Shown: piece after piece, positions 4,980 through 14,672 of the stretch
How the letters are laid out: the number at the start of each line of letters is the position of its first letter
Numbering within the stretch: the first letter of the stretch is position 1
NCBI GenBank assembly: GCA_018401385.1
Contig: JAGYKZ010000014.1
Span: forward strand, 1-37,494
Direction of reading: 5' to 3'
Source of the DNA: Roseicyclus sp.
Lineage (GTDB): Bacteria; Pseudomonadota; Alphaproteobacteria; Rhodobacterales; Rhodobacteraceae
Length of the DNA stretch: 37,494 nucleotides
Notes under the pieces: generated by a model
What the model saw: only the letters and a program-made list of their open reading frames with translations
Databases searched by the model: none
What the model was told of the DNA's origin: nothing
Position numbers and translations under genes: made by a program

Positions 4980-5970
4980 ATGGCAACGCGAAAAACTCCG
5001 ATCATATTGGATGAGCAGCCGCAGCCAGAACGGGCGATATCCCCGATGGATGCGCCTGCCGTTGTCGATGAGATGTCAGCAGATATTCCAACCCTCTCGG
5101 CGACCCCATCCCGGCCTGTAGCAATGCGGCTGTTTCTTTGGGCCAGCGGCGTGTTGTTGGGCGCGATATTGGTCAATGCCGTGTGGGGCTTTGTGCTTGA
5201 TATGATGGCGCGCGGCACAGTTCTGGGGCAGGTGGCGCTTGGTTTGGTGGGGGTGTTCCTTGCCTCCGCCTGTTTTTTCATCCTGTCCGAATGGCGCGCC
5301 TATCGGCGGCTGTCGTATATCAGCGATGTGCAAGATAAGGCACGGGCGGTGCTGAACGAAAAAAACCTTGAGGGGATAACAGCGCTGCGCCGTGATCTGA
5401 CGGTGCTCTATCGCGGGCGCGCGCACTGATGACCGCAGCGGATGCGGCCCTGGTCGGGTTTGACGAGATGTTTGACGCAGATTTGCGCTTCGCTGCGTGG
5501 AAAGCCGCCTATCTGACCCCCTTGGACCACAGGGCGCGGGCTGAGATTGCCCAATCTGCGCGCCGTGTGGCCAGCCTGACCGCTTTGTTGCCATTTGGGA
5601 TTTTGGATATGGTGCTTGCGCTATGGATCAATCTGCGCATGATCCGCCGCTTGGCGGATATGTATGGTGGACGCACAGGCAGCTTTGGCGCGTGGCGGTT
5701 GTTGCGTTCCGTGATTGCACAGCTTTGGCGACTTAGGTGCGCTGGTGTTGGCGATGATCAGTCAGCTCCACCTTGGGCGGTTCGCTCGCTGCGAAACTTT
5801 CGCGCCCGTTTTGGCGAAGGGGGGTGTTCAACGGGGCGATGACGGCGCGGCTTGGATTGATCGCGATGGAGCTGTGCCGCCCTTTGCCCTTTGTGGCCGC
5901 CCACGACCCAGTTTGCGTAGCGTTTTGTCGGAGGCGTTTCGGGGCTTTCAAAGGCTCAAATCCCTGAATC
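4980..5970 (+). pseudogene. TIGR01620 / YcjF-type (DUF697) membrane protein, frameshifted
   Basis: Members are inner-membrane proteins of about 330-350 residues that often accompany a YcjX-like GTPase; their role is unclear. The ATG follows a strong AGGAGAGGGG ribosome binding site. Residues 48-105 hold two membrane segments, followed by LSEWRAYRRLS and LRRDLTVLYRGRAH. That frame stops at 5429, where ATG overlaps TGA, and the continuation (LTPLDHRARAEIAQSARRVASLTALLPFGILDM, NLRMIRRLADMYGGRTG, AWRLLRSVIA) is in frame 2. The frame breaks again near 5720 and several times before 5960, where GAMTARLG and CRPLPF of the conserved end are still readable. The first break could be a real gene overlap, but homologues I know are one chain. 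From 5970 to 6177 I see no gene. Confidence 0.7.
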
Positions 5971-6177
5971 CCAAAACGCTTCTTTACCCCATGCGTTTGC
6001 AGCGATATACGGCACCCTATGAGACGGATGAACACACAGATTGCGATACGAATTATTGGCCCGGCGCTCACAGTCAGCAGGGCCGCCGGGACTAAGGTGT
6101 TGAGCTATCGCGCCGCTCTTTCCCCCTCATTGGTCATGGCCTGCCATGCCGCAGTAGCCGATGGGATTTTTCTTTCC

Positions 6178-6690
6178 ATGTGTGCCGACCTTCCCGACTA
6201 TAAAGACACGTTGAACCTTCCCCAAACCGATTTCCCGATGCGCGCAGGCCTGCCCACAGCGCGAGGCCCGAATGTGTTGTACTGGGAAAGTCGGCGTCTA
6301 TCAGCGGCTGCGCGATAAGGCAGCAGAGGCGGCCGCAAGGCTGGCGCGCCGCGCCCGCCGTTCGTGCTGCATGATGGCCCCCCTATGCCAATGGCAATCT
6401 GCATATCGGCCACGCGCTGAACAAAGTGCTGAAGGATATGGTCGTGCCTTAACGATGATGGGCCATGAGGCGCGCTACATCAGGGTGGGATTGTCACGGT
6501 CTGCCCATCGAGATGGAAGATCGAGGCCTATCGCGCCAAAGGCCGGGATAAGGACAAGATTGACGTTGTCGATTTCCGTCAGGAATGCCGCCGCTTTGCC
6601 GAAGGCTGGTTGATGTCCAGCGCGCGGGTTCAAGCGCCTAGGCGTGACAGGGAGTGGGACAAGCCCTACCTCACTATGGATTTCCACGCC
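6178..6690 (+). pseudogene. ileS: Isoleucyl-tRNA synthetase, N-terminal fragment with frameshifts
   Basis: IleRS charges tRNA-Ile. The fragment begins with MCADLPDYKDTLNLPQTDFP, the normal start of alphaproteobacterial IleRS. Other pieces in changing frames are VGVYQRLRDKAAE, PFVLHDGPP, the class I signature NGNLHIGHALNKVLKDMV, MMGHEARYI, AYRAKGRDK, DFRQECRRFAEGW and [14 protein letters not shown]. At least six single-base shifts are needed to read them as one chain. After the codon ending near 6690, IleRS similarity stops and KDPG aldolase similarity begins. About 170 of roughly 950 residues are present. The matching C-terminal part of IleRS is found at 8226-9167, fused to CysRS, with foreign genes between the two halves. 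Confidence 0.85.
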
Positions 6691-6874
6691 GAGTGCAGAT
6701 ATTCGCTTTTGCCCAACAGGCGGCATCAGCCTTGCCAATGCGCCAAGCTATCTCAGCCTGCCCAATGTGCTGTGTGCGGGGGGCTCATGGGTTGCCCCGA
6801 AAGCGGCCATGGCGGCGGGCGATTGGGATGCGATCACCAAACTGGCGCAAGAGGCCGCAGCGCTGCCGCGTTAA
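6691..6874 (+). pseudogene. eda: KDPG/KHG aldolase, C-terminal fragment
   Basis: The complete enzyme splits 2-keto-3-deoxy-6-phosphogluconate in the Entner-Doudoroff pathway. Only the last 60 residues or so are present: [18 protein letters not shown], then [14 protein letters not shown], then [20 protein letters not shown] and a stop. The FCPTGG and GGSW blocks belong to the phosphate-binding end of the aldolase barrel. The catalytic Lys and Glu lie upstream and are missing. The fragment is fused directly to the broken ileS start and has no start codon of its own. Its frame is clean, unlike the ileS piece. It ends tail to tail with the next gene, overlapping it by three bases. Confidence 0.8.
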
Positions 6875-7245
6875 CCCAAGAATTTGACCTCATCAAAGGG
6901 CGGAAGGCTGGCTTGCTGATTGGCGTTTAATTCTGCGCGGACCTGGGCATAGCTGCGCGTGATATAGCGGCGCAGCTCATAGGGGGTGGTGTTTTGCCAT
7001 TGCAGCATCACCCAGCCCCCGCTTTTGAGATAGGGGGCGGAAACAGCCTTTCCCGCTTGTATCATTTTCTGCGCCTCGGTCGCACTTTCTGCGCGTAGTG
7101 AAACACCTGTGCTGCCCCTTGTGTAAGCCGCAAACATTTTTTCGGCCACGGTCCACACATACATATCGGGGCCGAACGGTTCAGACAGGCGCGCACCAGG
7201 CAGGGATTTGCAATGGCGCTCCACAAAATCTTCAAACATGGCCAC
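6871..7245 (-). CDS. MmcQ/YjbR family protein
   Basis: This is a small protein of 122-124 residues with the YjbR-like fold, which resembles a CyaY-type DNA-binding module; its function is not established. Visible family features are the N-terminal helix ([15 protein letters not shown]), a strand pair around [17 protein letters not shown], a basic turn and WVMLQ. The start is GTG at 7245 or ATG at 7239; the ATG removes two residues and is equally acceptable. The gene is intact and lies between the eda fragment and the CysRS/IleRS fusion, on the opposite strand. Confidence 0.8.
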
Positions 7246-7394: not shown

Positions 7395-9167
7395 ATGGCC
7401 AAGATCAAGCTGAGAAATTCAATGTCCCGCAAGGTTGAGGATTTCGTGCCCATTGATCCGCACAATATCCGCCTCTATCTCTGCGGCCCCACGGTTTATG
7501 ACCGCGCCCATTTGGGCAATGCGCGCCCCGCGATTGTGTTTGATGTGCTGTATCGGCTGCTGTGCCATGAATATGGCAAAGATCACGTGACCTATGTGCG
7601 CAATTTCACCGATGTGGATGACAAGATCAACGCGAAGGCCGCGCAGACCGGGCGCAGCATCGCCGAGATCACCGATGAAACCATCGGCTGGTATCATGAA
7701 GATATGGATGCGCTTGGCATTTTGCGCCCCACACATGAGCCGCGCGCGACCCAGTATATCCCCCAGATGATCGCGATGATTGAGGGGTTGATTGAAAAGG
7801 GCCATGCCTATGCGGCGGAGGGTCATGTGCTGTTTTCTGTGGCAAGTTATCCCGATTATGGCCGCCTATCTGGGCGCACGGTCGATGATATGATCGCAGG
7901 CGCGCGGGTCGAGGTGGCCCCGTATAAGCGCGATGCGATGGATTTTGTGCTGTGGAAACCATCGGATGCGGACACGCCCGGATGGGACAGCCCATGGGGC
8001 TATGGCCGCCCAGGGTGGCATATTGAATGCTCCGCCATGAGCCACGAATTGCTGGGCGCGCATTTCGACATTCACGGTGGCGGCAATGATTTGATGTTCC
8101 CGCACCATGAGAATGAAATCGCGCAAAGCTGCTGCGCGCATAAGGTCGCGGGATTTGCCAATATCTGGCTGCATAATGAAATGTTGCAGGTCGAGGGCAA
8201 GAAAATGTCCAAATCCTTGGGCAATACGGTGGCCCCGCAAGCCGTGATTGACCAATATGGCGCGGATATTCTGCGCCTGTGGGTGGCGCAATCGGATTAC
8301 ACCGCTGATCTGCGCATCGGGCCTGAGATTTTGAAGAACGTGGCGGATAGCTACCGCCGCTTGCGCAACACGATGCGGTTTATGCTCGGCTCGCTTGGCG
8401 ATATCACCGCGGCGGATCACACCGAAGCGGCAGATATGCCTGAATTGGAGCGGTTCATCTTGCACCGTTTGGCGGAGTTGGACCAGATCGTGCGCGAGGG
8501 CTATCGCACATATGATTTCCAAGGCGTGTTCCAATCCCTGTTCAACTTCGCCACCACGGATTTGTCCGCCTTCTATTTCGACATCCGCAAAGACGCGCTT
8601 TACTGTGATGGTGACACGTTGGAGCGCCGTGCCGCCCGCACGGTGTTGCAGCATTTGTTTGATCGCCTGACGACCTGGCTTGCGCCCATTTTGACCTTTA
8701 CCATGGAGGAGGTTTGGCTTGAGCGGAACAAAGACCCCGAAGCCTCCGTGCATCTGGTCGATTTTCCTGAAACCCCCACAGCCTGGCATGATCCAGAATT
8801 GGCCGCAAAATGGGCGATGATCCGCCGCGCGCGCCGCGTGGTGACAGCCGCGCTGGAGGTGCAGCGCCGTGACAAAGTGATCGGCGCTTCGCTGGAGGCG
8901 GCCCCCGTGATCCATGTCGCCCAAGCACAGATGCGCGCGGCGCTGCAATCGGTCCCGTTCGAGGATTTGGTGATTACCTCTGCGGTCACTTTGACGGATG
9001 CGGTGGCCCCTCTCGATGCGTTCGCCCTGCCCGAAATCGAAGGGATCGCGGTGGTCTTTGCCAAGGCGACAGGCGAGAAATGCGCGCGCTGTTGGAAAAT
9101 TCTGCCCGATGTGGGCAGCCACAGTCATGCCCATGTCTGCGGGCGCTGTGATAGCGCCTTGTCCTAG
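7395..9167 (+). CDS. Chimeric cysteinyl-/isoleucyl-tRNA synthetase
   Basis: This is one clean open frame of 590 residues. Residues 1 to about 277 are Cys[20 protein letters not shown] holds a zinc Cys and the HIGH-type signature, [11 protein letters not shown] follows, then [13 protein letters not shown] (zinc Cys) and [19 protein letters not shown] (zinc His/Glu). Residues 278-590 are Ile[59 protein letters not shown], and the C-terminal zinc finger [13 protein letters not shown]...CGRCDSAL. The switch falls in [10 protein letters not shown] (8196-8225), which both enzymes share. A normal CysRS would continue with its own anticodon domain after this motif. The join keeps frame perfectly. The fusion would pair a cysteine-activating core with an isoleucine tRNA-reading domain, so I doubt it works as a synthetase. 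The start is the ATG before AKIKLRNS, with a GGGGCGGG upstream; an earlier in-frame start lacks family similarity. Confidence 0.9.
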
Positions 9168-12216: not shown

Positions 12217-12615
12217 TCAGAACCCGTTCTTCGCCAGCCAATCGCGCATCCACGCGATTTCGGTTTCCTGCGCGGCGATGATCTGTTGGGCAAGTTCCTG
12301 CACCTCGGCATCAGTGCCATGCTCCAGGACCACTTGGGCCATGGCGACCGCCCCTTCGTGATGGGGAATCATGCCGCGGATGAAATCGGCATCGGCATTT
12401 CCGCTATAGGCAATGTCCATATCGGCATGCATCGCGTCATTGACCGCGCGAAACGCATCCTCGGCCGGGCCGGTGGAGGCTGTGGGCATGGCACCATGGC
12501 CTGCATGGGCGTCATGCCCGCCATGTTGTGAATGATCCATCTGGGCCATTCCGATCCCAGCGGCGATGGTGATCAATGCGGCGGCAGCGGGCCAAGCTTT
12601 TACGGTGCGATTCAT
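12217..12615 (-). CDS. DUF305 family exported histidine-rich protein
   Basis: This is a 132-residue exported protein. Residues 1-25 form a signal peptide ([20 protein letters not shown], cleavage near GMAQ). A His/Met-rich stretch follows ([16 protein letters not shown]), and then the DUF305 helical domain with the signature [17 protein letters not shown]. The paired His and Met residues suggest binding of copper or another metal in the periplasm, as reported for some DUF305 proteins. Its ATG overlaps the stop of the upstream aminotransferase by four bases (ATGA) and its AGGAGA site lies inside that gene, so the two are probably co-translated. Confidence 0.85.
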
Positions 12616-13985: not shown

Positions 13986-14672
13986 ATGCCCTTTGATCGT
14001 TCCATTAAAATCGCCCCTTCGATCCTTTCCGCAGATTTTGCTGATTTTGGTCGCGAGATCCGCGCAATCGAATCCCAAGGTGCCGATTGGGTGCATATTG
14101 ATGTGATGGATGGTCACTTCGTGCCGAATCTGACCTTTGGTCCACCAGCAGTGAAGGCGTTTCGGCCTCATGTGAAAACGGTGATGGATGTGCATTTGAT
14201 GATCACGCCAGTTGATCCCTATATCGAGGCCTATGCCGATGCAGGTGCGGATATTTTGACTGCCCATATCGAAGCGGGGCCCCATATCCACCGAACGGTG
14301 CAAGCCATTCGCGGGGCGGGGATGAAAGCGGGTGTTGCGCTCAACCCCGCAACACCGGCCGAGAGCATCGCTCATCTTTTGGAGCTCTGCGATTTGGTAT
14401 GCGTGATGACGGTGAATCCTGGTTTCGGCGGGCAAAAATTTATTGACCTTACCGATAAGATCGCGCGCCTGCGCACCATGATCGGTGATCGTCCGATTCA
14501 TATCGAGATTGACGGTGGTGTGGACCAAAAAACTGCCCCACTGGGGGCCGCCGCAGGCGCAGATGTTCTCGTTGCAGGCTCTGCCGTGTTCAGGGGGGGC
14601 TCGGTTGAGCGCGCGGAGGTTTATGGCGCGAATATCGCAGCCATCCGTCAGGCCGCATCTGAGGCCCAATAA
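13986..14672 (+). CDS. rpe: Ribulose-phosphate 3-epimerase
   Basis: The enzyme interconverts D-ribulose 5-phosphate and D-xylulose 5-phosphate in the pentose phosphate or Calvin pathways. The 228-residue TIM barrel has all family blocks: [32 protein letters not shown] (metal His and Asp), [26 protein letters not shown] and AGSAVFRG. The start ATG is followed directly by family sequence. The gene is divergent from the aminotransferase, with a 198-base gap, and is followed by a bidirectional terminator. Confidence 0.96.

Follow-up and report, generated by a model that had tools for sequence, protein, structure and literature searches.

An in-frame CysRS-IleRS chimera in a Roseicyclus contig is very probably an assembly artefact

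Does the long open frame at positions 7395 through 9167 of a Roseicyclus sp. contig encode a new tRNA synthetase, or were two genes brought together only when the contig was put together? The window, by which we mean the whole stretch of 37,494 nucleotides that was analysed (G000:C46:1-37494), had been read in an initial annotation as carrying one frame in which the catalytic half of cysteinyl-tRNA synthetase (CysRS) is followed by the anticodon-binding half and zinc finger of isoleucyl-tRNA synthetase (IleRS). Two origins were proposed for it: recombination that created a new gene, or a misjoin of two loci at a short k-mer common to both. Were the frame genuine, it would be striking, a synthetase with a mismatched active site and anticodon reader; such an enzyme is predicted to be able to charge tRNA-Ile with cysteine.

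The frame is present as described. Translation of the window gives 590 stop-free residues at 7395 through 9167, in which Pfam recognizes the CysRS core (tRNA-synt_1e, PF01406; residues 17 through 315, E = 1.6e-113, a value that rules out chance similarity), Anticodon_1 (residues 353 through 501) and zf-FPG_IleRS (residues 560 through 586). Among the NCBIfam models, cysS matches residues 4 through 346 and ileS residues 245 through 503. Residues 1 through 303 are 89% identical to the CysRS of a congener (G003), and position 7395 agrees with the start of that protein; in the list of open reading frames, the frame stays open farther upstream, with a GTG at 7098. Neither enzyme is complete. Like CysRS, the chimera has the N-terminal catalytic half up to KMSKS, but the C-terminal part of that enzyme is missing; the match to the cysS model (TIGR00435) scores 411.5 bits against a cut-off of 340 and covers positions 1 through 341 of 466, hence it is not full-length. 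Like IleRS, the chimera has the anticodon-binding domain and the C-terminal zinc finger, but codons 177 through 674 of ileS are missing and the 5′ part lies upstream in a broken frame; the ileS model (TIGR00392) is matched at positions 586 through 856 of 861 with 208.2 bits, below its cut-off of 621.4. On the opposite strand, a 494-codon open frame (7866 through 9350, minus) runs antisense to the chimera; the composition of the coding strand probably accounts for it.

The first 14 kb of the window were compared by BLASTN with the ileS and cysS loci of three same-genus genomes among the relatives searched (G001, G002 and G003). These congeners carry ileS and cysS at widely separated places; each gene occupies a long open frame and gives one match per genome. 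Against G003 (ileS locus, L039; cysS locus, L040), window positions 3 through 6693 correspond to 2616 through 9331 of L039 (87% identity), positions 6706 through 8225 to 8241 through 9772 of L040 (90%), and positions 8194 through 12197 to 10794 through 14795 of L039, the contig being collinear with the ileS locus from there onwards. The breakpoints are identical against all three congeners; in each of the three, the ileS locus matches both flanks and the cysS locus only the part between, and both pieces of the chimera align to the same three genomes at 78 to 90% DNA identity. The initial annotation had described a single join between two loci. This has to be revised, as there are two: the contig passes from ileS into 1.5 kb of cysS-locus sequence and then back into ileS. 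One crossover between the two loci is ruled out by the second join, at 6693/6694. The features are, in order:

5724 to 6693, no strand: indel-rich patch ending at the left join, with frameshifting indels relative to G003 clustered at 5724 to 6652
6178 to 6693, plus strand: 5′ part of the native ileS, about codons 1 to 176, assigned by BLASTN to L039; several small indels break the frame
6693/6694, no strand: left join, an abrupt passage from ileS to the 3′ part of eda, located by comparison with L039, L040, L042 and L044
6694 to 8225, plus strand: block from the cysS locus (3′ end of eda, YjbR-family gene, 5′ part of cysS), assigned by BLASTN to L040
6871 to 7245, minus strand: YjbR-family gene within the block, recognized by Pfam
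7395 to 8225, plus strand: 5′ part of cysS with the CysRS catalytic domain (PF01406, and the identity to the G003 CysRS given above)
8201 to 8225, no strand: right join, a word of 21 to 25 nt common to ileS and cysS (KMSKSLGN codons), located by word comparison
8226 to 9167, plus strand: 3′ part of the native ileS, from codon 675 (G003 numbering) to the end, assigned by BLASTN to L039; Anticodon_1 and zf-FPG_IleRS

The 5′ part of ileS starts with MCADLPDYKD at 6178 and gives a match to the ileS hidden Markov model at 6378 through 6518 that contains two internal stops. The contig leaves ileS after codon 176 and re-enters it in register at codon 675 (G003 numbering), so that the foreign block stands for codons 177 through 674. 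The block measures 1532 bp; the ileS stretch that is missing measures 1494 bp in G003, 1446 bp in G001 and 1509 bp in G002. The eda gene of G003 is recognized by NCBIfam TIGR01182.

The switch between the two enzymes had been placed inside a motif that both possess, and it is found there: the DNA resembles cysS before 8201, is common to both genes within 8201 through 8225 (the codons of KMSKSLGN), and resembles ileS thereafter. The longest exact word that occurs in both genes measures 25, 25 and 21 nt in G001, G002 and G003, respectively, and lies at the right join in each, compared with a longest shared word of 13 to 14 nt in codon-shuffled cysS controls (20 per genome). Translation continues across this join because both genes read the word in one frame, as one motif. 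A word of this kind suits a k-mer or short-overlap misjoin and homologous recombination alike; therefore, the word alone does not decide between them.

At the left join, comparison with L039, L040, L042 and L044 revealed no word shared across the boundary; a pure k-mer misjoin thus explains the right side only. We placed this join at 6693/6694 because the frame of bases 6694 through 6705 is that of eda (ADIR, followed by FCPTGG). Their letters differ in all three congeners, and on the evidence of the frame they would belong to eda. The join closes the indel-rich patch of ∼970 bp; 14 frameshifting indels at 5942 through 6693 recur identically in the comparisons with G003 and G001 and are therefore private to the window. 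Relative to G003, other indel-rich patches lie at 14640 through 15210, 17649 through 19150, 22504 through 23490 and 25765 through 26080. Together, the five patches, which were picked after the map was seen, hold 170 frameshifting indels (40 per kb; 102 deletions and 68 insertions) versus 58 (1.9 per kb) in the remaining aligned window, in counts that pool coding and noncoding sequence. Identity at aligned columns, also relative to G003, is 86.4% in the patches, little below the 88.5% of the other sequence. There are no frameshifting indels at 6706 through 8225 relative to the cysS locus, where the block shows a single 12-nt gap just upstream of cysS, and none at 8194 through 9166 relative to the ileS locus.

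The pattern of indels suggests that the patches are probably unpolished stretches between polished ones and that coverage was probably low in the patch at 5724 through 6693. The four downstream patches are probably sequence errors, and therefore pseudogene calls on this contig are untrustworthy; some of the indels outside the 5′ part of ileS may be true differences. A similar indel-rich patch is present on another contig of the same assembly (C112; positions 5711 through 7151 of L061, G000:C112:20000-31362), so the mosaic quality reaches beyond the window. The end of contig C130 has few indels.

Intact ileS and cysS had been expected elsewhere if the join were real. The assembly (2.10 Mb in 197 contigs) is estimated to be 69% complete; the search was run and found no whole ileS or cysS in this bin, an absence that alone decides nothing. 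In a profile search of the bin, PF01406 exceeded its cut-off only at the chimera and the ileS model had no match above its cut-off; nor was the middle part of ileS found. A 28-base match on C68 in the search for that middle part was taken as chance. Matches on C179 and C184 lie far below the cut-off of the ileS model and were rejected as ileS; both are probably related class I synthetases (the C179 match has 31% identity to P0001). A search of the bin with 14 kb of the G003 cysS locus returned, besides weak matches, only the chimeric block and close pieces on C112 and C130. The weaker matches, seven in number (65 to 78% identity), fall within one gene stretch of L040, which we take to be ABC-transporter-like, and were treated as paralogues. 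The pieces on C112 and C130 both end at the last base of their contigs, which indicates that the native cysS locus is itself broken up in the assembly; in G003 coordinates, the end of C112 lies ∼1.8 kb and that of C130 ∼3.0 kb away from the block, rather than at its edges.

In other genomes, no counterpart of the chimera was found. None of the 40 other relatives (41 including the window's own genome; G024 had no match of any kind) has a match that spans both halves, and the same holds for the 197 other family members, among the matches listed. The family search covered 198 genomes, a set that overlaps the 40 relatives, and left G022 and G024 without a match at the threshold. Ordered by E-value, its matches run from 1377 bits for the window's own genome to 571 for the next best and 502 for the last listed; with the list ending at 502 bits, it should include any chimera whose two halves both reach family-level identity. 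Among GTDB contigs, a set that may lack records of the window's own genome, the best 80 of at least 577 confirmed relatives include none that spans both halves. A conserved, lineage-specific fusion was rejected on its absence from the three congeners and the other genomes examined. Judged by titles and the beginnings of abstracts, the papers returned by a literature search describe no natural CysRS/IleRS fusion.

Of the two origins proposed initially, the recombined new gene fares poorly and the misjoin at a shared k-mer is strongly favored, given the ileS context on both sides and the shared word at the right join. We therefore regard the chimera as very probably an assembly artefact, a reading of the sequence in which the native gene is ileS, single-copy in the congeners, with a middle of ∼1.5 kb that was not recovered. 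An assembler or gap-filler would have bridged the gap in ileS with 1.5 kb taken from the cysS locus, a locus that it entered abruptly from the poor-quality patch and left again for ileS by way of the longest word that the two genes share. The near-equal length of block and gap suggests, but does not prove, that gap-filling was constrained by length. We infer solely from the pattern of indels that the assembly may have been a hybrid one; the origin would then lie in path-finding or gap-filling during hybrid or scaffolded assembly rather than in a chimeric DNA molecule in the library. Several findings count against an artefact: the left join has no shared word, the block is without a frameshifting indel, the ends of C112 and C130 lie away from the block edges, the end of C130 is poor in indels, and the word at the right join would suit real recombination too.

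The same clean block, in frame, is what a real recombination would leave, in which the middle of ileS gave way to ∼1.5 kb of the cysS locus while another, intact ileS and an intact cysS persist elsewhere, outside the bin. The 21 to 25 nt of homology at the right end would serve such an event, and intact copies could be missing from a bin of this completeness. However, homology at the left end was not seen, ileS and cysS are single in all three congeners, the insert nearly fits the length that was lost, the left join falls at the edge of an indel-rich patch, and no other genome examined has the chimera. As ileS is single in the congeners, a real replacement would remove the only IleRS unless a duplicate arose. 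We consider this course of events very unlikely. Slightly more doubtful again is its extension, that a real replacement led to an expressed enzyme combining a CysRS active site with an IleRS anticodon half, the cell living on another ileS that lies outside the bin.

Template switching is known to occur at short shared words, and the right join would fit a chimeric DNA molecule that arose during laboratory work (by multiple-displacement amplification, PCR or ligation) and was then faithfully sequenced and assembled; since this requires two switches in one molecule, the second returning to the same gene in register, and leaves the near-equal length and the indel patches unexplained, it is, if anything, a little less likely than recombination in the cell.

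The closest known parallel is the misassembled metagenome contig. In PMC7881036, chimeric contigs are documented at low to intermediate coverage, and two hybrid assemblers are described as producing frequent misassemblies, while hybrid assembly is judged beneficial overall, with better contiguity and accuracy at relevant coverages. The present contig is like those chimeric metagenome contigs in that it unites pieces of separate loci, one of its two joins falling on a short shared word, and in that its assembly is fragmentary and incomplete. It differs in that the contigs described there mix reads of different genomes, whereas both pieces here align to the same three congeners, and in that the frame here stays open and the product resembles a gene.

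The open frame is real as letters and almost certainly false as biology, and we attach no biological significance to it. Its value is as a warning: a motif common to related enzymes, such as KMSKS of the class I synthetases, can yield a chimera whose frame is intact and which slips through both an open-reading-frame check and family searches. Here, comparison with congeners exposed the fault at once.

Two further features of the window lie downstream of the chimera. A frame of 250 codons (21361 through 22113, plus strand) has no Pfam match at E 0.001, and the ∼1.1 kb that hold it aligned with the adjacent parts of neither G003 nor G001. At 12217 through 12615 (minus strand), a DUF305 gene lies in a 591-base stretch that replaces 123 bases of G003 and resembles an ordinary gene insertion.
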